A stretch of 20,351 bases of DNA from a virus: positions 1 through 20,351 of IMG/VR virus record IMGVR_UViG_3300040807_000349. One strand, written 5' to 3'. This document shows, piece after piece, positions 4,217 through 17,686 of the stretch. A program made the translations under genes and the position numbers. How positions within the stretch are numbered: position 1 is the stretch's first letter; each line of letters starts with the position of its first letter. The notes beneath the pieces are model-generated. The model was not told where the DNA came from and searched no databases. It saw nothing but the letters and a program-made list of their open reading frames with translations.

Positions 4217-5083
4217 ATGTCTACTCAAATTACTACAGCTTTTGTCAATCAGTTTTCAGCAAATATCCAGATGCTGTCACAGCAAATGGGTTCTCTGCTG
4301 CGCAATGCGGTAGATGTTGAAAGCGTGAATGGCGAGAAAGCATTCTTCGATCAAGTAGGTTCAGCGGCAGCTGTTCTACGTACTTCACGTCATGCGGATA
4401 CACCGTTGGTTGATACACCACACTCACGCCGTATGGTAACAATGTCTGACTACGAATACGCAGACTTGATTGACGATCAAGACAAAGTGCGTTTGTTGGT
4501 AGATCCGACATCAACATATAGCCGTGCAGCTGCTGCCGCTATGGGTCGTGCAATGGATGACGTTATCATCTCTGCCGCTCTAGGTACAGCATACACAGGC
4601 AAAGACGGCTCAACAGCGACAGCGTTTGACACATCTAACCAACAGATTGCAGCTGCATCTGGCGGTTTGACATTGGCTAAGTTGATTGAAGCAAAAGAGA
4701 TCTTGGATAGCGGCAACGTTGATCCATCGATCCCTCGTTACATTGCTGTGTCTCCGAAGCAAATCTCTGATTTGTTGAACAACACAACAGTGACATCTAG
4801 CGACTATAACACCGTAAAAGCTTTGGCGATGGGTGAAATCAACAGCTTTGTTGGCTTTAACTTCATCGTGACAAACCGTTTGGGTGTTGATGGTTCTTCT
4901 AACCGCCGCGCTTTTGCATGGGCGCAGGACGGCATCAAAGTGGCAATGGGTAAAGAGCCTAGCGCGCGCATTGATGAACGTGCTGACAAATCCTATGCGA
5001 CCCAGATCTATTATTCACAGACTATGGGTGCGACACGCATGGAAGAAGCCAAAGTCGTTGAAATCCTTTGCGTCGAATCATAA
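4217..5083 (+). CDS. Major capsid protein
   Basis: 288 residues. The N-terminal region FVNQFSANIQMLSQQMGSLL and the later MSDYEYADLIDDQDKVRLLVDP and AAAAAMGRAMDDVIISAALG segments are typical of a podoviral major capsid family of presumed HK97 fold that is commonly annotated as phage capsid protein. The residue region about 185-225, with GEINSFVGFNFIVTNRLGV followed by RRAFAWAQDGIKVAMG, fits the A-domain and spine of such proteins. It builds the icosahedral shell. It is shorter than T7 gp10A (345) and has no obvious frameshift extension. Position after the scaffold and behind a leader of its own matches gene 10 of T7. The stop codon overlaps the AAGGAG of the next gene, so the two are probably co-translated. 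Confidence 0.92.
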   Translation: MSTQITTAFVNQFSANIQMLSQQMGSLLRNAVDVESVNGEKAFFDQVGSAAAVLRTSRHADTPLVDTPHSRRMVTMSDYEYADLIDDQDKVRLLVDPTSTYSRAAAAAMGRAMDDVIISAALGTAYTGKDGSTATAFDTSNQQIAAASGGLTLAKLIEAKEILDSGNVDPSIPRYIAVSPKQISDLLNNTTVTSSDYNTVKALAMGEINSFVGFNFIVTNRLGVDGSSNRRAFAWAQDGIKVAMGKEPSARIDERADKSYATQIYYSQTMGATRMEEAKVVEILCVES

Positions 5084-6213: not shown

Positions 6214-8474
6214 TGGCTCGATCCGCTCCCGCTCTAAGTACGTTCTCGGCTGGTGAGATCTCGCCACGGCTTGAGGGCCGTGTTTCTCTTGATAAGTATC
6301 GGGAAGGTCTGTCAGAGCTAACCAACATGATTGTGCAGCCGCACGGTGGTGTAACACGTCGCCCTGGTACAGAATATCTTGGCGAGGTGAAAGACAGCAC
6401 GAGAGAAACTAGGCTTATTCCTTTTGAGTTCAAGACATCTGACACCTATGCTTTAGAGTTCGGCAATCAATATATGCGGGTTTTCCGCAACGGGCTGCAA
6501 GTTCTTGAGGCGAGTGAAAAGACGGTGACGGCAATTACCCTGGCAAATCCAGGAGTGTTTACAAGCACAGCCCACGGTCTGAGCGATGGTGATGAGGTCT
6601 ATCTTTATAACGACGGGTCAGCGATGACCGAGATGAAAGAGCGTAACTATCGCGTAGCAAACGCAACCGCGAATACATTCACGCTGACTGATCTCTTTGG
6701 CAATGACATCGATACAACCGATTACACGGCGTTTGACGCATACATTAGCGTCGATCGCATTTATGAGATTGCTACGCCTTATCTGACTGCGGATCTGCAC
6801 AACATTCGTTTTGCTCAGTCTGCGGACGTCATGTACATCGTTCATCCAAGTCACCATTCTCGCACACTCTCGCGTTACGATCACAATGATTGGCGGCTTG
6901 ACGGCGTGTTTCTTGGGGAACCGCTAACAGCAAAGTCTATAACTGGTGTGACTAAGGCTAATCCTGGCGTTGTGACCGTTTCATCTCATGGTTTTTTCAA
7001 TGGCGACGCTGTTAAGATTAGCGGCATCGTCGGCATGACGGAGTTGAATAACAAGTATTTCTATGTTGCTAATGCCACAACCAACACCTTTACGTTAAAG
7101 GATGTTGAGAACAATGACATCGATACGACCAGCTACACGACCTATTCATCTGGCGGCACAGCGCAGAAGATCCAGGCATCCGTTCCCGCACTTTGGGGCG
7201 CTGCCAACAATCCGTCTGTGGTCACATTCTTCGAGCAGCGGCTAGTTTTCGGAGCAACGAGCAACAACCCGCAAGCTCTGTGGTTTTCAAAAAGTGCAGA
7301 CTATCTCAATTTTACAGTTGGGACGGCGGATGATGCTGCACTGATCTACACGATCGCGTCAAATAAAGTTAATGCTATCAGGTACTTATCAGCAACGCGC
7401 GTATTAATTATTGGTACGTCTGGCGGTGAGTACGTTCTAACAACAACAAACGGTGGTCCTGTTACGCCGACAACAACTGTTATTCGCAAGTATAGCAACT
7501 ATGGCTGCACGAACGATGAGCCTGTCCAGGTTGCGGATACGACGCTATTTATTCAGCGTGGTGGCCGAAAAGTCCGCGAGTTTAGATATGCGGGTGAGAT
7601 CGATACTGGCGGCTATGCTGCGCCTGATATTACGATCTTGGCCGAGCATTTAACGGAAGGCGGCATTCTACAGTTCGCTTACCAGCAAGAACCAGAAAGC
7701 TTGATCTGGGCGTTGCGCAATGATGGCACTTTGTTAGGGCTGACATATCGACGCGAAGAGCAGGTCGTTGCCTGGCATAAGCATATCATTGGCGGATCTT
7801 TTAATGGCGGTCAGGCTGTAGTTGAAAGCGTCATGAGCTTGCCTACTGATAGCGGTGAGGACGAGCTATACATAATCGTAAAGCGCACAATTAATGGCGC
7901 TACAAAGCGTTATGTGGAAGTTCTAAAGACGTTTGACTTTGGCTCTGATACTACGTCTGCATTCTTTGTGGATAGTGGTCTGGTTTATTCTGGGTCGTCC
8001 GTAGGCTCTGTCACAGGGGCGTATCACTTAGAGGGCGAGACGGTTTCTATCCTGGCAAACGGCGCAACACATGCTGATAAATCGGTGTCGAGCGGCGGCG
8101 TTACGTTTGATTTCAATATCACATCTGGGGCGATTGGCTTTGGCTTTACCAGCCAAATGCAGACATTGCGCCTTGAGGCTGGATCTGTTGACGGGACAAG
8201 CCAGGGCAAGCCTAAGCGTATCCATGCAGTAACATTGAGGATCGATGAGACGGTCGGGCTTGAGGTCGGTCCTGATGCAGACAGTTTGGATCGGATTTAC
8301 TTCCGTGACAGTTCTATGGCGATGGATACAGCTGTTCCATTGTTCACAGGAGATAAAGAGATCGAGTTTCCTGGCGGATTTGATGACGATGCTAAGATCT
8401 TTGTCCGCCAGAACCAGCCGCTGCCGATGACAATATTGGCAATCTATCCACGTCTAAACACGTTTGACAAATGA
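6213..8474 (+). CDS. Tail tubular protein B (nozzle), T7 gp12-like
   Basis: 753 residues (T7 gp12: 794). The N-terminus LSTFSAGEISPRLEGRVSLDKYREGLSELTN, then GGVTRRPGTEYLG, is the hallmark of podoviral nozzle proteins. Two related domains of about 70 residues are inserted, at residues ~105-173 and ~242-315. Each runs ANPGV.T...HG...GD.V, then VANAT.NTFTL, then NDIDTT.YT, resembling the FCCH-type repeat seen in many phage tail proteins. The remainder is beta-rich, including a VTFFEQRLVFGAT segment and a blade-like middle (about residues 330-500). The protein forms the hexameric nozzle of the short tail. Its stop overlaps the following start by ATGA. Confidence 0.93.
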   Translation: MARSAPALSTFSAGEISPRLEGRVSLDKYREGLSELTNMIVQPHGGVTRRPGTEYLGEVKDSTRETRLIPFEFKTSDTYALEFGNQYMRVFRNGLQVLEASEKTVTAITLANPGVFTSTAHGLSDGDEVYLYNDGSAMTEMKERNYRVANATANTFTLTDLFGNDIDTTDYTAFDAYISVDRIYEIATPYLTADLHNIRFAQSADVMYIVHPSHHSRTLSRYDHNDWRLDGVFLGEPLTAKSITGVTKANPGVVTVSSHGFFNGDAVKISGIVGMTELNNKYFYVANATTNTFTLKDVENNDIDTTSYTTYSSGGTAQKIQASVPALWGAANNPSVVTFFEQRLVFGATSNNPQALWFSKSADYLNFTVGTADDAALIYTIASNKVNAIRYLSATRVLIIGTSGGEYVLTTTNGGPVTPTTTVIRKYSNYGCTNDEPVQVADTTLFIQRGGRKVREFRYAGEIDTGGYAAPDITILAEHLTEGGILQFAYQQEPESLIWALRNDGTLLGLTYRREEQVVAWHKHIIGGSFNGGQAVVESVMSLPTDSGEDELYIIVKRTINGATKRYVEVLKTFDFGSDTTSAFFVDSGLVYSGSSVGSVTGAYHLEGETVSILANGATHADKSVSSGGVTFDFNITSGAIGFGFTSQMQTLRLEAGSVDGTSQGKPKRIHAVTLRIDETVGLEVGPDADSLDRIYFRDSSMAMDTAVPLFTGDKEIEFPGGFDDDAKIFVRQNQPLPMTILAIYPRLNTFDK
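6525..6731 (+). repeat. FCCH-like module, copy 1, in the nozzle gene
   Basis: Residues about 105-173 of the nozzle protein: ANPGVFTSTAHGLSDGDEV, then VANATANTFTLTD, then NDIDTTDYT. The second copy begins about 137 residues downstream. Similarity is clear at protein level but weaker in DNA, so the duplication is old. Confidence 0.75.
6936..7157 (+). repeat. FCCH-like module, copy 2, in the nozzle gene
   Basis: Residues about 242-315: ANPGVVTVSSHGFFNGDAV, then VANATTNTFTLKD, then NDIDTTSYT. This matches copy 1 block by block in the same order, with an added SGGTAQK end. Confidence 0.75.
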
Positions 8475-8923
8475 TTGAGTATGCACAGGAGACACTAAAC
8501 CAGGCAAAAGCCGACGCTATTCCGTTGTTGATACGGCATTACGAAGAGATTGCGCTCAATAAAGACATCATCGAGTTTAACCCAGATTGGGATATGTATG
8601 AGAAATATGAAGAGGTTGGGCTGCTAAAGATCTTTACTGCGCGCGAAGACGGGATATTGATCGGTTACTTTGTTGTCATAGCGACACGACATTTGCATTA
8701 CAAAGATCACATTTTCGCGTATAATGACATTATCTACATTGCCCCAGAACACAGAAAAGGGTTTGCGGGGTGGCGATTGATAAAGTACGCGGAGAAAAAA
8801 TTAAAGGAGCAAGGTGCAACAATTATGTTGATAAATGTTAAGCGCCATAAACCATTTGATGCTTTGCTTGAGAGACTTGGGTTTTCTCATATCGAAAGCA
8901 TTTTCTCTAAGAGGTTAGTGTAA
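8471..8923 (+). CDS. GNAT-fold acetyltransferase-like protein at the T7 gene 13 position
   Basis: 150 residues; start ATGA overlaps the nozzle stop. The layout is GNAT-like: a helical N-terminus, strand pair LLKIFTAREDGILIGYFVV (51-69), the motif A strand and loop IIYIAPEHRKGFAGWRLI (87-104), where RKGFAG stands in for the acetyl-CoA pyrophosphate loop (R/Q-x-x-G-x-G/A), then a C-terminal FDALLERLGF (129-138) typical of motif B. The protein could transfer an acyl group to a protein or small molecule. T7 gp13 (138 aa) occupies the same slot and is required for infectious particle formation; I recall that gp13 relatives are also assigned to an acetyltransferase-like fold. A virion assembly role is therefore as likely as free catalysis. 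It is coupled by TAATG to the gp14-like gene. Confidence 0.82.
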   Translation: MIEYAQETLNQAKADAIPLLIRHYEEIALNKDIIEFNPDWDMYEKYEEVGLLKIFTAREDGILIGYFVVIATRHLHYKDHIFAYNDIIYIAPEHRKGFAGWRLIKYAEKKLKEQGATIMLINVKRHKPFDALLERLGFSHIESIFSKRLV

Positions 8924-9450
8924 TGGCAGTTCAAGTTCTCCCATGGGTTGTCGCGGGAACGGCCGTCGCGGGCGGCATCTCGGAAAAGAAAGCGTCTGAT
9001 AAGGCCGCAGCCAAAGCGCAAGAGGCGGCAAACTTTAACGCGGAGTTAATCGAGCGTGACGTTACGCTCTTAGAAAAGCAAAAAGATCTTATCAATGCCA
9101 ACCAGTTAGTTCGTGAGAAGGTTTCTCGGTACAAGTTCGAGCAGATGCAGGGCAGCGTAAAGGCTAACTTTGCCTATGCTGGTATCGATATTGCCCAGGG
9201 AACGCCGATGCGTGTTCTTCGTCAAAACGCGCGAGAGTTCGAGTTCGACATGGCGACAGAACGTTTCAATGATAGCGTCCAGGTGATGCAGATCGCAGAC
9301 GCACAGGAAAGCGCAACACTGAATGCCGAGCTTACCCGCATGGAAGGCGGAGCGTATGCTGGTGCATTAAGAGCGCAAGGAACACAGAGCTTGATTTCTG
9401 GATTCGGCAAGGCCGCTTCGTTCGGATATTCAAGCGGAATATTTACATAA
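8923..9450 (+). CDS. Internal virion protein, T7 gp14-like
   Basis: 175 residues (T7 gp14: 196). It starts in TAATG with GAGG upstream. A short hydrophobic N-terminus (VLPWVVAGTAVAGGI, residues 5-19) is followed by an Ala/Lys/Glu-rich helical region to about residue 75, then ANFAYAGIDIAQGTPMRVL, which is a strong signature of the podoviral internal virion protein B group. The C-terminal half alternates Ala/Glu helices and ends in a Gly/Ser-rich tail. Such proteins are ejected with the DNA and form the outer-membrane part of the trans-envelope channel. The next gene starts nine bases later behind AAGGTGA. Confidence 0.88.
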   Translation: MAVQVLPWVVAGTAVAGGISEKKASDKAAAKAQEAANFNAELIERDVTLLEKQKDLINANQLVREKVSRYKFEQMQGSVKANFAYAGIDIAQGTPMRVLRQNAREFEFDMATERFNDSVQVMQIADAQESATLNAELTRMEGGAYAGALRAQGTQSLISGFGKAASFGYSSGIFT

Positions 9451-9459
9451 GGTGACGAC

Positions 9460-11940
9460 ATGAAGATACCTTTATACCAAGCTAGGGCTGGCGGCATCAC
9501 AACTGAAACGCCTGGTCGCTCGATCACTGCACGGATGAGCGCAGAGCCTTACGTCCAGGAGGCTTTGGCTAAAGGTCGTGTTGTAGGTGAAGCCGCTCGT
9601 CAAGTTGGCGAGTTTGCCCAAATGCGTTACAAAATGGCGCGTGAAAGCGCGTTGAGCAATGCGTTGATTGGTGCTGATGAACAGCTTCGTGAGGAATACT
9701 ACAAGCTAAGTAAGACAAACGAGCCGCATAAGGTTCTCGATGGCGATGATCCGATTTGGCAAAAAACTCAGCAAGGCATCTATGAAAAGCTGCGTGATAG
9801 TGTTGGCAAGGATAGATCAGCACTAGCTGCGTTTGATGAGAGCTATAAGCGCGCAGAGTTGCAGTATCGTTTCCGTTTGCGCACGGCTATGGATCAGAAG
9901 ATCGAGGCCAATATCCAGGCGGCACGTCGCCGTAGGCTTGAGAATGCGGAGCGCAGCGCGACAGAAGCTGAGACAGTCCAGGATGTGCAGCTAGAGTTAA
10001 AGAATATTGGGGTTGATAGCGAACGCCTGGCACAAGTTCTCGGCGGCAACCCCCAGGCTTTGAAAGCTCAGGAATATGAGTTCTTAAAGAGGGTTGCTTA
10101 TCGCCGTTTGCAGAACACGGTTGATCGAAGCGGTGCGCCGCTAGAAATGGCTTCGCGTATCCATGAAGCGGTGCGTGACGACAATCCAGATGCGCTCACT
10201 AAAATTGGAGCAGACGGCCAAATTACTGCTTTGGGCGGGGCGGTTGAATATCAACTGATGAAACTGCTCAATCCAGAAGATCGGGCAAAGATCCTTAACT
10301 CTGTTATCTCTACGCGCCAAGCAATAGATGGCCCTACGATCGAAGAGCAAAACAAAGCTAAGGCGATGCAGGGTTATGCGGCTTCTGTTACGGATGACAT
10401 CTCTTCTGCAATGAGCCAGATCAAAGACAATTTCTCCCTGTCTGATGGGCAGTTTGGAATTATTGCTGATAAAGTTGTCCAGGCACAACAATACTTGCCC
10501 GCTGATAAAGCTGCGAAGGTGCAAGCTGATTTTGCGTTATTGACAGGCATGGCGGAGATTTCCAAAGAATTAAAGCACATGAACCCTGACCAGATGAATG
10601 CGCGGATTGAAGAGCAGCGGATGAACGCGCAGACTGATTTTGACCGCAACATTGTGTCATTCATGGAAAGCTATCAGTCTAAGTTTAAGGAGCGGATTGA
10701 TAAAGATCCTATCGAGGTTGCGCGCGAAAACGGCATTCTCAAAAGCAAGTTCGAGGATATTACGTTCGATTTCTCTAGCGGTGATGCACGGGATAACCTG
10801 GCGGGGCAGCTGCGCCGTCGGTCTGACCTGGCAATGAATGTAAACGATATTTACGATCGCACAGGGCGCGGCTTACCACCAACACTACTGACAGCGGCGG
10901 AAGCACAGAACCTATCGCGTAGCTTCGATGTAATGACATTCGGGCAGCAACGCGAAGCGATTGCAACAATCCAGGGCGCGCTTGGACCGAATGCTCGTCA
11001 TGTATTCCGTCAGATTGGGAAAGATAGCCCGCTCGTCGGTCACATCGCTGGGTTAATGGATGTCTATGGTCCTGATGCGAAAGTTGTCCAGGACATTCAA
11101 ATCGGGATGGCGTCGGATCAAAAGGTCACGTTAAACAATGTCCAGGTCAACGGTGAAAGTGCAAACCTGGTCTTCAACAATCAGCTTAACTCAGCGTTTG
11201 CATTGTTGCCGCCTGATATGACATCTTCCTTGCGTAATACAACGCGCCAGGCAGTTAGTGCAATCTTAACGACTAAAGTGCTTCGTGGTGAGATCGAAGA
11301 CGTTGCAGACGTAAAAGAAGAAGAGATGCTGTCAATTATAAGTTATGCGCTAGGCGGCTCAGAAGATGGGACAACTGGCGGTCTTGGTATGTATAACGAT
11401 CGTGTTTTCTTCCGTCCCGATGGCGTTGATGATGAAACTTTTGCCGAAGGAATAAAAAACCTATCGATCGATGTTATTGCGCAAATGGGTCAGACGGGCC
11501 GTATTGTGCAGCATTCTGCAGATGATAAAATCTTATCTATGGCAATCGATGCTATTGCGGACGGCAGCGAGAATTTCCACCCATATGTATCCCGCACCCT
11601 GGGCGTTGGTAACAAGAAGGTTAATGTGTACGGCTTCTATGCTGGGGAACCTGGACGTGAGCGCGCTTATGTCGGGCAGAATGGATTGCCGCTAGAGTTT
11701 GTCTTTGAAGATATTAACCTGGCATCTGAGACAGTTCGCGTAATTGAAGAGCAAGCTGCGTTTGAAACTAAGCAAGTAACGCCGTCGGCTGAGTGGGGCG
11801 AAATAAGAGGTCGGTCTGTTTCTGTTGAGTTAAATGCTAAGAAGTATCTTGTCGATCCAGATACAAACAAAGTTTATACTGGCGATCGTAAAGAAGTTAC
11901 GGGAGATCTTGCCCGTGAAGTAAGGAAGGCTCGTAAATGA
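9460..11940 (+). CDS. Internal virion / ejection protein, T7 gp15-like
   Basis: 826 residues (T7 gp15: 747). AAGGTGA (9449-9455) precedes the ATG. The N-terminus IPLYQARAGGITTETPGRSI is followed by AEPYVQEALAKGR and long charged helices with many Gln, Arg and Glu (about residues 35-175), as expected of the gp15 family, whose members assemble a helical periplasmic tube during genome ejection. No enzyme motif or membrane span was found. Identification rests on the N-terminal pattern, the size, the helix-rich composition and the location right after the gp14-like gene. The stop overlaps the next start by ATGA, with TAAGGAAGG as ribosome site. Confidence 0.8.
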   Translation: MKIPLYQARAGGITTETPGRSITARMSAEPYVQEALAKGRVVGEAARQVGEFAQMRYKMARESALSNALIGADEQLREEYYKLSKTNEPHKVLDGDDPIWQKTQQGIYEKLRDSVGKDRSALAAFDESYKRAELQYRFRLRTAMDQKIEANIQAARRRRLENAERSATEAETVQDVQLELKNIGVDSERLAQVLGGNPQALKAQEYEFLKRVAYRRLQNTVDRSGAPLEMASRIHEAVRDDNPDALTKIGADGQITALGGAVEYQLMKLLNPEDRAKILNSVISTRQAIDGPTIEEQNKAKAMQGYAASVTDDISSAMSQIKDNFSLSDGQFGIIADKVVQAQQYLPADKAAKVQADFALLTGMAEISKELKHMNPDQMNARIEEQRMNAQTDFDRNIVSFMESYQSKFKERIDKDPIEVARENGILKSKFEDITFDFSSGDARDNLAGQLRRRSDLAMNVNDIYDRTGRGLPPTLLTAAEAQNLSRSFDVMTFGQQREAIATIQGALGPNARHVFRQIGKDSPLVGHIAGLMDVYGPDAKVVQDIQIGMASDQKVTLNNVQVNGESANLVFNNQLNSAFALLPPDMTSSLRNTTRQAVSAILTTKVLRGEIEDVADVKEEEMLSIISYALGGSEDGTTGGLGMYNDRVFFRPDGVDDETFAEGIKNLSIDVIAQMGQTGRIVQHSADDKILSMAIDAIADGSENFHPYVSRTLGVGNKKVNVYGFYAGEPGRERAYVGQNGLPLEFVFEDINLASETVRVIEEQAAFETKQVTPSAEWGEIRGRSVSVELNAKKYLVDPDTNKVYTGDRKEVTGDLAREVRKARK

Positions 11941-14900
11941 CCATTCTGAATTTCGAGAGAGCGCCGACAAAACCAGCAGAAGGACAATCTATTTCCGAAG
12001 CTCCGTCAGGTGTTTTGGAGAATTGGAATGCGGCTTTTAAAGGAGCCAGGGCGCAGCAGCCCCTGGCAGAGCGCCGTTATGAACGTCAGTATTGGTCAAC
12101 TGTGTTAGATGAGATCGAGGCGCAGACGGGCGAAAGCTTTAACAACCCTATGGCTTTTGATCTTATGCGCGGCAGTTACTACGATCATTATCTCGGAAAA
12201 ATCCAAAACTATGTGCGCGCAAATAAGGACAAGTTAGAGGGCGATTTCGATCTACTTCTTAGTCCTAATGTTACAGAAGACATTGCCAAACAATCACGAG
12301 AACGCGCTTTAAATGACATCCAGGAAAGCGAAGAGATCTATAGCCGCTCATCTGGAGCGCTATCCACGGCAGCAAGCTTTGCTGGTGCGTTTGCAGCTGA
12401 GGCGACAGATACGACTAACTTGGCACTTGCGATCGGGACGTCACCTATTGCGGCTGGCGCGCGGTCCTGGGGCGGGATTATGTTGCGTGAGGCGTTGCTA
12501 AACGCTGGCTCTGAGGCGCTGTTACAGCCCGCTGTGGCGCAATGGTACGGTGAGCTTGGCCTTGATTACTCGTTTGAGACATTCCGAGATGCAGTATTGC
12601 TGGCTGGGGCAACGGGTGCTGGTTTTGCTGGCGCGATCAAGCTTGGCGGCAGAACAATAACTTTGACCAAAGAACAACTAAAAAAAGGCTATGATGCGTT
12701 TATAGGCAGCGGGGCTTCTAAGGAAACTGACGTTGGCGTTGGTGCATCGATGATGTACGACGATGCTGTCGCAACGGAAGCAAACAACCCGTTGGATGGG
12801 GCAAATGCCGCAAATGAACACGTTGATCGTGTTTCTAAAGCGCAGAAAGCTATCGAGCAAAATGAATTAAGCCTTGTCCCTGGCGATCCGCAATCAGCTG
12901 TTGTGCCGCCAAAAACCGTTTATGATTTCGATAACCTGGACAATCAGATATATCGCTTCGACCCTAAAACTATCCAGGTCGATGCTCAAACATTTCAGTT
13001 TAAGTCAGGCGGCGATGAATACGGGGTGACTGAGCGGCTCAAGGATGTTACCGTATGGGATCCCTCTTTGTCTGGGCAGGTTACTGTCTATGAATATGTT
13101 GATGGCTCTCGGTTTATTGCGGACGGTCACCAGCGGCTAGGGCTTGCCAAGCGTATCATGGACCAAGATCCAAGCCAGGACGTGCGGCTTTATGGCAGTC
13201 TTCTGCGTGAAGTTGACGGCATTACGCCAGAAGAAGCGATGGTTACTGCCGCGTTTAAGAATATTGGTGAAGGCACTGGCACTGTCCTCGATGCAGCAAA
13301 AATCTTTCGGTTTGCGCCTGAACGTGTAGACGATCCGCGTTTGCCTAAACGATCTGCATTTGTGCGCCAGGCACGATCGATTGCTAATCTCAGCGATAAT
13401 TCGTTTGGCCTTGTTGTGAATGAGATTGTGCGTCCAGACATAGCAGCTGTTGTTGGCCGAATGATCCCCGCCGATAAAGAGATGCAAGATGTTGCGATGG
13501 ACGTTTTAGCTAAAACAGATCCATCGTCACAGTTCCAGGCAGAAACTATTGTGGGCCAGGTTCTCAGCACAGGCGTATCACGCGAAACACAAGTAAGCCT
13601 GTTCGGTGAGGAGGAGGTCTTAGAGAGCTTATTCCTGGAACGTGCAAAGATCCTTGAGCGGTCAAAGAACCAGCTAAAGAAAGACCAGGCCGCGTTTAAG
13701 AACCTGGTAAAGAACGCCGATCGCATTGAAGGCGAAGGCAATCAACTGGCGAAGGACGCCAATGAGAAAAGGACACAGCAAGATGGCACGGCAATCGCGC
13801 TCCTCCAAAGCCAAGCAAACAGAAAAGGCGCTCTCTCAGACGCCCTCTCAGAAGCCGCAAGATTTGCAAAATCCACAGGACGGTATGGCGAGGCTACAAA
13901 AAGCTTTGTCGATGCTATCCGAAGAGCAATTAACGAGGGCGACTTTGAACGCGCAGAGATTAGCGATGTCGGACGCTATGTCGATGATACGCCGCAAGCG
14001 ACTACAATACGAGATCAACACGACGAAGCAACGCTAGACATGTTCGATGATCCTCATGGTGAAGCCGTTAAGCAGCAAGCTGACGCCGTTACCGAGGATA
14101 TTCGTGCGGATCTTACAGAGCCGAAGCTTCTTAGAGAAGATCTGAAACGCCTGGTTGAAAGCGGTGCGCCCGAAGAGCAGATTGTAAATCACCCTTCTAT
14201 TCTGCGCGCTCTTGATGAAATGCAATCGATCGAGCCGACTACAAATCGCGCAGGGTACGACACAGACGCCTGGTACGAAACACGTCGCTATAACATCGGC
14301 GCGCGGCGGGACGGCACATTTGAAGAAGTTCACAATCACCTGGTCGATGTTGCGAGAAAGCTTGGCTGGGAAGATGCAGGGCTAGAGTTCCCGAAGAATG
14401 CTATCCGCCAGGAACGCAAAGCGGTTATTATCCTGGGGCCACCAGCGGCGGGGAAAAGCACAATCGCTAATCCGATTGCACGCAAGATTGGCGGGGCTAT
14501 CGTTGATGCAGACGAAGCTAAAAAAGTGTTGCCAGAATACAACGATGGCATTGGCGCAAACGCAGTGCATGAAGAAAGCTCGACGCTAAATGAATTGGTT
14601 TTCCAGGATCTTATGGAGCAAGGCGATAATATTGTTCTGCCAAAGGTCGGCGGCAAGCCTAAAAGCATTGAGACGGCCATTGCACGGCTCAAAGAAAACG
14701 GCTATGAAGTAGATATAGTTGATATGGTTGTTGGTCCAGAAGAGGCCATGCGGCGGATGGTAGCCAGGTTCATATCAACAGGTCGCCTCATCCCGCCTAA
14801 TTATGTTCGTTCTGTCGGTACAGGACCAAGTGCAACTTATGATTTCCTAAAGCAGAAAGGTGCAGCAGATGGCTACACAAGAATCTTCAATGAAGTCGGA

Positions 14901-15224
14901 CGAGACGACGCAAAGCCTATCATCGAAGACACAAGAAACCTCCTCGACAACGTCGAGCTTCGACTACGAAGAAGTGGAGATGAAGGGGATCGAGCGGGCG
15001 CAGGGGGCGGCAGCGCAGAGAGCATTGCGTCGCGCGCAGAAGCTGCGGAGCCAGTAGAGCTTCCGCTTATCGAGGAAAGCTTGCTAGATGCAGAATTTCC
15101 TATTGAGCAAATGCTCGATGCAGATGACAATATGGTTGCGCGTACTGTAACAGCGCGTGAGATCTTGGCCGAAATAGATCAAGATGATGCAATGATTGAT
15201 AGACTGTCGAGGTGTCCGCTATGA
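11937..15224 (+). CDS. Large polyvalent virion-region protein with ParB-like and zeta-toxin-like kinase domains
   Basis: 1095 residues in the slot where T7 has its ejected gp16. Residues 1-250 are helical and Ala-rich, with weakly hydrophobic stretches (about 140-180, 215-235), and probably belong to the virion part. Residues ~336-440 look like a ParB/Srx-type domain, with FIADGHQRLGLAK and its DGHQR motif at 396-400. Residues ~550-660 form a charged helical linker containing QVSLFGEEE, seen in other polyvalent proteins. Residues ~822-1005 are a zeta-toxin-type P-loop kinase: Walker A GPPAAGKST (834-842), VDADEAKKVLPEY (857-868), a LPKVGGK segment, a GYEVDIVDM strand, and RFISTGRLIPPNY supplying the conserved arginines. 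Classical zeta toxins phosphorylate UDP-N-acetylglucosamine; the substrate here is unknown. No antitoxin gene is adjacent. No lytic transglycosylase domain was recognised. Domain calls are from motif reading. Confidence 0.85.
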   Translation: MTILNFERAPTKPAEGQSISEAPSGVLENWNAAFKGARAQQPLAERRYERQYWSTVLDEIEAQTGESFNNPMAFDLMRGSYYDHYLGKIQNYVRANKDKLEGDFDLLLSPNVTEDIAKQSRERALNDIQESEEIYSRSSGALSTAASFAGAFAAEATDTTNLALAIGTSPIAAGARSWGGIMLREALLNAGSEALLQPAVAQWYGELGLDYSFETFRDAVLLAGATGAGFAGAIKLGGRTITLTKEQLKKGYDAFIGSGASKETDVGVGASMMYDDAVATEANNPLDGANAANEHVDRVSKAQKAIEQNELSLVPGDPQSAVVPPKTVYDFDNLDNQIYRFDPKTIQVDAQTFQFKSGGDEYGVTERLKDVTVWDPSLSGQVTVYEYVDGSRFIADGHQRLGLAKRIMDQDPSQDVRLYGSLLREVDGITPEEAMVTAAFKNIGEGTGTVLDAAKIFRFAPERVDDPRLPKRSAFVRQARSIANLSDNSFGLVVNEIVRPDIAAVVGRMIPADKEMQDVAMDVLAKTDPSSQFQAETIVGQVLSTGVSRETQVSLFGEEEVLESLFLERAKILERSKNQLKKDQAAFKNLVKNADRIEGEGNQLAKDANEKRTQQDGTAIALLQSQANRKGALSDALSEAARFAKSTGRYGEATKSFVDAIRRAINEGDFERAEISDVGRYVDDTPQATTIRDQHDEATLDMFDDPHGEAVKQQADAVTEDIRADLTEPKLLREDLKRLVESGAPEEQIVNHPSILRALDEMQSIEPTTNRAGYDTDAWYETRRYNIGARRDGTFEEVHNHLVDVARKLGWEDAGLEFPKNAIRQERKAVIILGPPAAGKSTIANPIARKIGGAIVDADEAKKVLPEYNDGIGANAVHEESSTLNELVFQDLMEQGDNIVLPKVGGKPKSIETAIARLKENGYEVDIVDMVVGPEEAMRRMVARFISTGRLIPPNYVRSVGTGPSATYDFLKQKGAADGYTRIFNEVGRDDAKPIIEDTRNLLDNVELRLRRSGDEGDRAGAGGGSAESIASRAEAAEPVELPLIEESLLDAEFPIEQMLDADDNMVARTVTAREILAEIDQDDAMIDRLSRCPL

Positions 15225-17686
15225 GTTTTCGCAACTGTATTGATGATGCGCAACGTGAAGGTGCTATTACTGAGGACCAGGCAAACGAAGCGCGCTCTCT
15301 TTTCGATGAATTAGACGAAGAATACCAGGGCAGAATGAATAAGGCGGCTGCACAATCGCAAGCCGCTCTTGATACATTTAACGCACTGCAACGCCAGGTC
15401 GCGCAGAAAAAGCGCCAGAAAGCATTGCAACTGAGAACCTGGCAGCAAATCAGCAAGAACCTGAATGACTATCGGACATCGATGAACCAGCCTGATATTT
15501 ACAAGGCTGCTTTATCGCACCTGGAACAAGACGTTAATTCACGGTTTTCTAGTGTTAAGCAGCGCGAAGAGGCTATCCAGGGCCAGGCATTTGGTGAAAT
15601 GTCGGCAGTCCTAGCATCGTTTCGCCGTAACATGATCGGTGAGGTACGCCAGAAAGCCAAGCTAAAGAACGTTATTCGTGAAGCTTTTGGTGAAAGTACG
15701 GGTGATGCAAGTGCGCGTGAGTTGGCGCAAGCCTGGGGCCGCACGTCTGAAATGTTGCGCAAACGCTTTAACCAGGCTGGCGGAGCAATTCCTAAGCGTG
15801 ATAACTGGGGGCTGCCTCAAACACACGACATGCTAGAAGTGCGCAAAGCGGGGTTCAATGAGTGGTCCGCCTTTGTTGAAGGGCGACTTGATCGCAATAA
15901 GATGATCGACGAAGCAACGGGCTTGCCGTTTTCTAATGAGAAATTTGGGCTTGTCTTGCGCGAGGTCTATGAAACTATTTCCTCTGATGGCATGAATAAG
16001 CTAAAGCCTGGCGGTCAAACGGGCGGCAAGTCTATGGCAAATCGCCGTCAAGACCACAGGTTTCTGGCATTTAAGGATGCGGACAGCTGGATTGAGTACC
16101 AAGATAAATTCGGCAATCCAAACTCTTTTGATGTGATGATCGGGCATGTGTCTAATATGTCGCGGGATATTGCGCAGATGGAGATCCTTGGGCCTAACCC
16201 GCGCGCAACGCTAACGTTTATGAAGCAAACCCTGGCGAAGAAATCGTCGGGCGATCAGGCGCTAGAGCGTAGGGCGGTTAAGACATCGAAGCAAATCGAT
16301 GAGCTTTACATGGCGCTTTCGGGGTCAACCAATGCGCCTGTCGATGGTGTCCTTGCGTCAACAATGGCGGGAACGCGCCAGGTCTTGCAGTCTGCGCAGC
16401 TTGGCTCTGCGGCTTTGTCTGCGGTTACTGATTTAAACTTTCAACGCCTGGCACGGCAACATGCGGGTTTGCCGCAAACTAAAACGTTGAAACAGTATTT
16501 GGATTTCATCAATCCTCTGAGTGCCGAGGAAAAAGGAGAGCTTGCTATTCGCCTTGGCCTGGTTGCTGAGGGCTGGACAAGCATGGCGGCTGCGCAAATG
16601 CGTTTTGTTGGCGACATCTCTGGTCCAGAAGTCACGCGACGTCTGGCAGATTTTACAATGCGCGCGTCTCTTCTATCGCCCTGGACAAACGCAGGGCGCT
16701 GGGCATTTGGCATGGAGTTCCTGGGTTCCCTGGCAAGCAATGCTGGCAAGCGGTTTGCGGATCTCGATCCTAATTTTAGAAAAACGCTAGAGCATTATGG
16801 TTTTGGTGAGGGGCGCTGGGACATTATCCGCTCAACAGAATTGTACGATGTTGACGGGGCTAAGTTCTTACGCGCGTCTGACATTGAAAGCCGCACAGAC
16901 ATATCGCCTACTTTGGCAAGTGATCTGGCAACACGCTTGCTAGAGATGGTGAATACTGAAACAAACTTTGCTGTTCCGTCTTCTTCGCTTCGTGGCCGCA
17001 CGGCTTTGATTGGCGAAACGCGCCCAGGCACGATTGCTGGTGAGCTTACCAGGTCGTTTGCAATGTATAAAAACTTTGGCGTCACGCTGCTTAACACCCA
17101 TGTCATGCGCGGTGTTACCCAGGAAGGCAAGGTCGGCAAAGGCGTGTATTTTGCTAACTTCTTAATTACTGCAACGTTAATGGGCGGCTTGGCATTGCAG
17201 CTAAAGGAAATGGCAAAGGGCCGAGATCCGCGTCCGATGGATACTGAGGAGTTCTGGGGCGCTGCGTTTATGCAGGGTGGTGGCCTGGGGATCTTTGGGG
17301 ATTTCTTGTTTTCAGATGTAAACCGTTTTGGCGGCGGTCTTGGGCAAACGATCGCTGGACCTGTTGTCGGTGTTGCAGATGACGTTCGCAGATTAACAAT
17401 CGGTAACATTCTTGAGATAGCGTCTGGGGAAGATACAAACGCTGCGTCTGAGTTTATTCGCTTTGCTGGCAAGTATACGCCAGGATCTTCTTTGTGGTAT
17501 GCACGGCTTGGTTTAGAGCGCGCCGTCATCGATCAGTTGCAGTTATGGGCTGATCCAAAGGCAGAGAAAAAGATGCAGCGCACTGAAAAAAAATACCGCC
17601 GTGAATACGGGCAACAATATTGGTGGTCTCCTGGCGATATTGCGCCAGAAAGAGCGCCAGAGATCGGAGCCGCATTTGGACAGTAA
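15221..17686 (+). CDS. Large internal virion / DNA-ejection protein (gp16-slot, second half)
   Basis: 821 residues from the ATG at 15221, which overlaps the preceding TGA (ATGA). A GTG at 15212 is in frame but less likely. The N-terminal ~150 residues are helical and Gln/Arg-rich. The C-terminal third is more hydrophobic and Gly-rich: FANFLITATLMGGLALQL near residues 643-660, then GGGLGIFGDFLFSDVNRFGG and GPVVGVADDVRRL, ending with YTPGSSLWYARLGLERAVIDQL and a basic RTEKKYRREYGQQYWWSPG tail. The C-terminal pattern is one I associate with large internal virion proteins of marine and rhizobial podoviruses. With the polyvalent gene it totals 1916 residues, against 1318 for T7 gp16. A likely role is an inner-membrane ejection conduit. 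No peptidoglycan hydrolase motif was recognised. Confidence 0.75.
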   Translation: MSFRNCIDDAQREGAITEDQANEARSLFDELDEEYQGRMNKAAAQSQAALDTFNALQRQVAQKKRQKALQLRTWQQISKNLNDYRTSMNQPDIYKAALSHLEQDVNSRFSSVKQREEAIQGQAFGEMSAVLASFRRNMIGEVRQKAKLKNVIREAFGESTGDASARELAQAWGRTSEMLRKRFNQAGGAIPKRDNWGLPQTHDMLEVRKAGFNEWSAFVEGRLDRNKMIDEATGLPFSNEKFGLVLREVYETISSDGMNKLKPGGQTGGKSMANRRQDHRFLAFKDADSWIEYQDKFGNPNSFDVMIGHVSNMSRDIAQMEILGPNPRATLTFMKQTLAKKSSGDQALERRAVKTSKQIDELYMALSGSTNAPVDGVLASTMAGTRQVLQSAQLGSAALSAVTDLNFQRLARQHAGLPQTKTLKQYLDFINPLSAEEKGELAIRLGLVAEGWTSMAAAQMRFVGDISGPEVTRRLADFTMRASLLSPWTNAGRWAFGMEFLGSLASNAGKRFADLDPNFRKTLEHYGFGEGRWDIIRSTELYDVDGAKFLRASDIESRTDISPTLASDLATRLLEMVNTETNFAVPSSSLRGRTALIGETRPGTIAGELTRSFAMYKNFGVTLLNTHVMRGVTQEGKVGKGVYFANFLITATLMGGLALQLKEMAKGRDPRPMDTEEFWGAAFMQGGGLGIFGDFLFSDVNRFGGGLGQTIAGPVVGVADDVRRLTIGNILEIASGEDTNAASEFIRFAGKYTPGSSLWYARLGLERAVIDQLQLWADPKAEKKMQRTEKKYRREYGQQYWWSPGDIAPERAPEIGAAFGQ

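Follow-up and report, generated by a model that had tools for sequence, protein, structure and literature searches.

Exchangeable zeta-kinase and RelA/SpoT-type cassettes at one site of an epsilon15-gp16-slot protein, and a conserved cysteine pair with gp17

Podophages eject internal virion proteins (PMC8954989). Polyvalent proteins, which combine ParB-like, zeta and RelA/SpoT domains, are encoded next to virion genes and are likely delivered with the DNA, were described by Iyer et al. 2017 (PMC5512222); the consulted sections of that paper report the zeta domains in conjugative elements and MuF fusions. MuF polymorphic toxins, head-associated phage proteins with a variable toxin-like enzyme, have been characterised with the (p)ppApp synthetase Apk2 and its immunity genes (PMC12226406). 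Enzymes delivered by phages have mostly been inferred from isolated, unusual genes. We describe here the viral contig IMGVR_UViG_3300040807_000349, analysed over its 20,351 bases (the window), which was classified as linear and as a probable fragment. One of its ejection-module genes encodes a protein of 1095 residues with a ParB-like segment and a zeta-type kinase, which we call the slot protein (P0001) because it occupies the gp16 position of phage epsilon15. In contrast to the zeta domains reported by Iyer et al., zeta and RelA/SpoT-type enzymes alternate in this family at one fixed site, inside an ejection protein of the epsilon15 type whose two ends stay constant. Two unrelated nucleotide-handling enzymes of toxin fold, or none, were swapped at this position at least 14 times. 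Polyvalent proteins and MuF toxins are the precedents; the exchange site and a cysteine pair between gp16 and gp17 appear to be new, as a keyword search of the open-access literature returned no description of either.

The gene downstream of the slot gene encodes a homologue of the epsilon15/phiV10 virion structural protein gp17 (phrog_684, E=4.9e-189). Since the gene order in phiV10 and epsilon15 is gp15, gp16, gp17, the window gene takes the place of gp16. By gene order and homology, the phage is an epsilon15/phiV10-like podovirus and the gene encodes the third protein of the ejection module. The gp16 proteins of epsilon15 and phiV10 share with the slot protein a lone cysteine near the C-terminus, matched by one at residue 5 of gp17, but they are shorter (634 and 600 residues), carry neither DGHxR nor a P-loop and resemble the N part and tail of the window protein weakly. 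The first-pass annotation had placed the gene between gp15-like and T7-gp16-like genes; the gp15-like neighbour stands by position, whereas the downstream gene is not recognisably T7 gp16, and Pfam gave no match to the T7 gp16 family in the window. A search for a T7-type RNA polymerase found no match, with an uninformative control. The T7 comparison is apt in spirit, as regards ejection of internal podophage proteins, and not in homology.

The frame is open across all 1095 codons, and DGHQR and all the predicted kinase motifs were located in it. The slot-gene ATG shares 4 nucleotides with the preceding stop codon and the gp17-like GTG (15212) shares 13 nucleotides with the slot-gene end, so the predicted coupling to both neighbours is present; comparable coupling was found in most relatives. 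Pfam assigned residues 825-988 to Zeta_toxin (E=2.5e-21, 76.5 bits, cut-off 22.3). When a profile of 17 homologues was searched against PDB, zeta (1gvn, 1.4e-8) was matched, as were PezT and AvrRxo1. The AlphaFold model of the slot protein was poor overall, with a mean predicted local distance difference test score (pLDDT) of 73, and good in the kinase region (about 86-96 through residues 830-990). Foldseek matches to the kinase were headed by zeta/PezT structures (3q8x at 1.1e-6, 1gvn, 2p5t), which places it inside this family. K840, D859 and R944 were invariant in 17 of 17 homologues and align with zeta K46, D67 and R158, which we take to be residues of the catalytic site. We conclude that the domain is confirmed, by sequence and predicted fold, as a genuine zeta/PezT-fold kinase, and that it lies in an ejection-module gene, both as first proposed.

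A classical toxin of this family and fold would phosphorylate UDP-N-acetylglucosamine (UDP-GlcNAc) and weaken the cell wall, which would make injection or subsequent lysis easier. Iyer et al. (PMC5512222) propose such a role for polyvalent proteins in general, including the zeta domains found in conjugative elements and in fusions with MuF. In the 17 homologues, however, the position equivalent to zeta E100 was variable and that equivalent to E116 was an invariant proline. Both glutamates presumably belong to the UDP-GlcNAc pocket of zeta. Since neither equivalent is retained as an acid, the substrate of the kinase may not be UDP-GlcNAc. The cassette that replaces the kinase encodes an alarmone synthetase, for which there is no target in the cell wall. 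The swap thus points to a shared nucleotide or growth-arrest theme, and we regard a cell-wall toxin as unlikely.

This swap was followed in relatives obtained with the gp17-like protein, which returned at least 80 related contigs; the slot protein alone gave no match among viral contigs. Each scan comprised the best 80 matches, and all counts of relatives are among the matches listed. Most of the relatives are contigs from metagenomes, and many are incomplete. Three scans were pooled into 121 distinct complete slot proteins. A RelA/SpoT-type (RSH) synthetase was present in 61 and a zeta kinase in 43, while 14 carried nothing and 3 were unassigned; none carried both enzymes. Among 72 aligned slot proteins, including those of the window and phage SI2, 27 were zeta, 33 RSH and 12 empty. 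Regardless of the cargo, the ParB-like segment and the C-terminal tail were conserved in all complete slot genes of the gp17 scan except L085, which encodes 599 residues and lacks the ParB-like segment. When the cassette states were placed on a gp17 tree, at least 14 changes were required; this tree is a quick one with some long branches, and its starred branches alone force 7 zeta changes and 6 empty changes. Close relatives allow a direct comparison. The cassette is absent from one of L033 and L059, and their body blocks are mostly 93-100% identical (a few central blocks are lower) and their tails identical at 45 of 49 positions. Clean in-frame presence or absence was also seen for L029/L057 and L055/L054. 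In a distant sublineage the exchange was repeated, with a synthetase in L206, zeta in L207 and near-identical tails. The first-pass annotation had read the gene as a T7-like slot converted to an effector carrier. This is not supported, as the slot is that of epsilon15 gp16, the N part and tail are retained and the enzyme is an optional insert; since relatives replace or omit it, the effector is an exchangeable load. The repeated exchange at one position also provides matched natural pairs for probing cargo function.

The alternative cargo matched Tas1, a (p)ppApp synthetase, at 3.5e-20 by sequence profile. Its AlphaFold2 model had a pLDDT of 94, with Tas1 as the top Foldseek match (2e-7) followed by an exported alarmone synthetase, and the catalytic motif residues D73, E128 and Q130 were invariant (alignment A5). 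A divergent third subtype, which had no match among PDB sequences, joined the RSH group by hhalign with a probability of 95.5%. By sequence, predicted fold and motifs, this cargo is a RelA/SpoT-type synthetase closest to Tas1. The two cargo types thus share fold and catalytic motifs with the type VI secretion effector Tas1, the zeta/PezT toxins and AvrRxo1. Each of those is a free-standing toxin or secreted effector with its partner proteins, whereas here the enzymes are internal domains of a phage protein. The ratio of non-synonymous to synonymous substitution (dN/dS) between pairs of relatives was 0.00-0.36 in the cassette enzyme (kinase or replacement) and, where computable, 0.005-0.10 in the ParB-like segment. 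By these ratios both cargos are under purifying selection and evolve faster than the body.

Both cargo families modify nucleotides or nucleotide-linked metabolites, so that a purpose common to the two, for example arresting growth, reprogramming or interfering with nucleotide signalling, fits better than a cell-wall role alone. A related possibility is a counter-defence cassette, in which the kinase and the RSH-type enzyme would alter a nucleotide signal or cofactor of host immunity. The swapping of two nucleotide-handling enzymes that never occur together and the faster evolution of the cargo are in line with this, as is a viral structural neighbour of 1134 residues that is anti-CBASS Acb1 by name only. 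However, PADLOC returned no family of note, and the structural relatives zeta, PezT and Tas1 are toxins and not known anti-defence enzymes. We hold this role to be possible but doubtful. The neighbour itself, the phage protein BFVD A0A6J5LTH6, matches part of the model and is possibly another cargo type.

The constant body is less easily named. Its DGHQR motif, of the GHxR type, was invariant across 40 aligned relatives. Pfam ParB models did not match the slot protein, and the ParB-like segment had no match among PDB sequences. Foldseek with the full slot-protein model returned Noc (7nfu, 2e-4) and ParB (7bnk, 4.5e-3), both weakly. Of the ParB-type domain proposed in the first-pass annotation, the motif therefore stands and the fold match is weak, while the Pfam profile is missing; the ParB label is a weak one. 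The Pfam, PHROG and Foldseek matches together put several unrelated domains into one protein encoded among virion genes. A metallopeptidase domain was not found in the slot protein, and a search of plasmids with the ParB-like segment found nothing. The segment occurs, at 46% identity, in a 3912-residue protein of Ruegeria phage 45A6 (L003, 5802-16942), which is of a different phage type. Additional, unassigned stretches flank the synthetase cassette in L024, L027, L036, L065 and L073; the one in L036 has a DGNSTY motif and resembles a second ParB-type domain. Relatives of the slot protein are also found in alphaproteobacterial genomes (L164-L194; Aureimonas, Stappia, Novosphingobium and others), many of them adjoining a gp17 homologue and probably in prophages. 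In this set, L183 has its zeta domain inside a protein of 2569 residues.

A constant body with a variable toxin-like domain is also the plan of a MuF-type polymorphic toxin, which would act between strains or phages while the producer carries immunity. (p)ppApp-synthetase cargos with immunity genes are known on MuF head proteins (PMC12226406), and an integrase in 5 of 30 relatives means that some may be temperate. The slot protein differs, however, in having no MuF match in Pfam and in carrying its cargo internally and not at the C-terminus. Because the genes overlap on both sides, there is no room for an immunity gene beside the slot gene, and no adjacent antitoxin gene was seen, in agreement with the first-pass annotation. 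An HD_4 hydrolase was present in 1 of 30 contigs, and a search for the epsilon antitoxin in 30 relatives found no match, but the control set was equally silent. A polymorphic toxin is therefore improbable. The single HD_4 gene, of the alarmone-hydrolase type, lies on the L067 contig (2839-3198), whose slot carries a synthetase cassette. A GNAT gene next to the module was considered as an immunity gene and rejected: judged by the size and order of open reading frames (ORFs), some relatives with a zeta kinase (L012) lack it and some with an RSH cassette (L019) have it.

The slot protein contains a single cysteine, C1093 of 1095. Among the 121 distinct proteins, 119 have a cysteine among their final 15 residues, and 103 contain a single cysteine over their whole length. 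The gp17-like proteins carry a cysteine near residue 5-9, as their only one in 59 of 70. The gp15-like proteins were cysteine-free in 66 relatives; exceptions are gp15 of epsilon15 and of phiV10, with two each. A script found the cysteine pair in 138 distinct loci, and inspection added 3. It spans epsilon15 (C629 of 634 in gp16, C5 in gp17) to the pelagiphages and is also present in phiV10, Tyrion, BcepC6B, YA3, Pseudomonas phage Komp_PA14_gP, TPWB-05, Alcaligenes phage Piluca, VP2, YeP5, ZCVPP1, Pelagibacter phage HTVC024P, Skadi-4 and SI2. In the marine T7-like phage MedDCM-OCT-S31-C1, the sole cysteine of the ParB-bearing protein is its last residue and that of the next protein is at position 3. 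At loci with no gp17 in view the terminal cysteine was mostly missing, and many of these have a short downstream sequence. A single fusion was found in an alphaproteobacterial metagenome-assembled genome (L177:6732-15170), where a 2812-residue ORF joins a ParB-bearing slot protein to a gp17-like protein and is cysteine-free. Phage P-SCSP1q (L005, 6618-14309) encodes a 2563-residue ParB-bearing protein, also cysteine-free. Its gene is flanked by those for the gp15-like protein and the tail fibre, a distinct gene for the following ejection protein is missing, and it is possibly a second fusion.

The terminal cysteine might be an artefact of the overlapping gp17 start codon, since NTG reads as TGN in another frame, and in the window the GTG (15212-15214) does overlap the TGC codon of Cys1093 (15213-15215). 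This origin was rejected and is highly improbable, because the cysteine is retained where the genes do not overlap, as in SI2 (134 nucleotides apart), phiV10, L206/L207 and ZCVPP1 (about 2.8 kb between the genes). The pair suggests, as its simplest reading, a head-to-tail disulphide between gp16 and gp17; metal binding or another thiol function could serve instead. Titles and abstracts of the open-access literature contained no plain description of disulphide-linked ejection proteins. The cysteine pair gives a simple prediction for how two ejection proteins join, and such a tether would support the incorporation of the cargo into the virion.

Taken together, our results make it probable that the epsilon15-gp16-slot protein, a constant body and tail around an exchangeable cassette, is packed with gp14, gp15 and gp17, tethered by its cysteine and delivers the kinase. 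In the virion core, its lone C-terminal cysteine would pair with the lone N-terminal cysteine of gp17. The enzyme would leave with the ejection proteins, ahead of or together with the first DNA, and in the new cell the kinase would phosphorylate a small nucleotide-type substrate. The outcome might be host arrest or reprogramming, or the disarming of a nucleotide-based response. Two points weaken this proposal. By profile, phiV10-type gp16 resembles the window protein only weakly in the N part (hhalign probability 57%) and tail (11%), and gp16 orthology therefore rests on synteny, the gp17 gene next door in both and the terminal cysteine. The module is also generally poor in cysteine, so that the cysteine-free L177 fusion is a single observation of modest support.

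The enzyme might alternatively work at a late stage inside the producing cell, or have virion proteins as its targets at assembly, and never be delivered. The gene sits among late structural genes, although the sequence does not show timing. Against this, the enzyme is built in between body and tail, both conserved, and empty versions retain both ends. A virion structural protein carries the other cysteine of the pair and, at one locus, forms a single fused chain with the slot protein. Late action thus seems hardly likely. If the proposed packing and delivery are correct, the constant tail may also be a naturally occurring address tag by which proteins are loaded into virions. We offer more tentatively a redox-released delivery, in which one conserved disulphide joins the gp16 C-terminus to the gp17 N-terminus, carries the swappable enzyme out and is reduced in the host cytoplasm, which would free the enzyme-bearing protein from the ejection channel.

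Table 1. Positions in the window of the slot gene, its parts and the neighbouring ejection-module genes.
Feature	Coordinates	Strand	Remark
gp14-like internal virion protein	8923..9450	+	phrog_418
gp15-like ejection-module protein, no cysteine	9460..11940	+	gp15-like by position
epsilon15-gp16-slot protein, 1095 residues: N part, ParB-like segment, cargo cassette, C-terminal tail	11937..15224	+	
N part (residues 22-325), mostly helical in the model; kept in relatives and alphaproteobacterial prophage-like loci	12000..12911	+	
ParB-like segment and helical region (residues 334-700)	12936..14036	+	
DGHQR motif (396-400)	13122..13136	+	
Exchangeable cargo cassette (about residues 730-1043), here zeta kinase	14124..15065	+	
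Zeta/PezT-type P-loop kinase domain (residues 825-988)	14409..14900	+	
Walker A GPPAAGKST (834-842); K840 aligns with zeta K46	14436..14462	+	
DAD (857-859); D859 aligns with zeta catalytic D67	14505..14513	+	
RFISTGRLIPP (944-954); R944 aligns with zeta R158	14766..14798	+	
Conserved C-terminal tail (residues 1044-1095)	15066..15221	+	
Cys1093, sole cysteine of the slot protein	15213..15215	+	
epsilon15-gp17-like virion structural protein, 824 residues, proposed partner	15212..17686	+	phrog_684
Cys9 of the gp17-like protein, its sole cysteine	15236..15238	+	

The gene order of the window is head-tail connector, a protein matching phrog_3742, major capsid protein, tail genes and the GNAT gene, followed by the gp14-like, gp15-like, slot, gp17-like and tail-fibre-like genes. 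The GNAT acetyltransferase gene (8471-8923) is preceded by a tail gene and followed by the gp14-like gene; to judge from the gene layout, it is variably present across relatives and not linked to the cargo type. The major capsid protein of the window (gene 4217-5083) also has a single cysteine near its C-terminus, at position 285 of 288.

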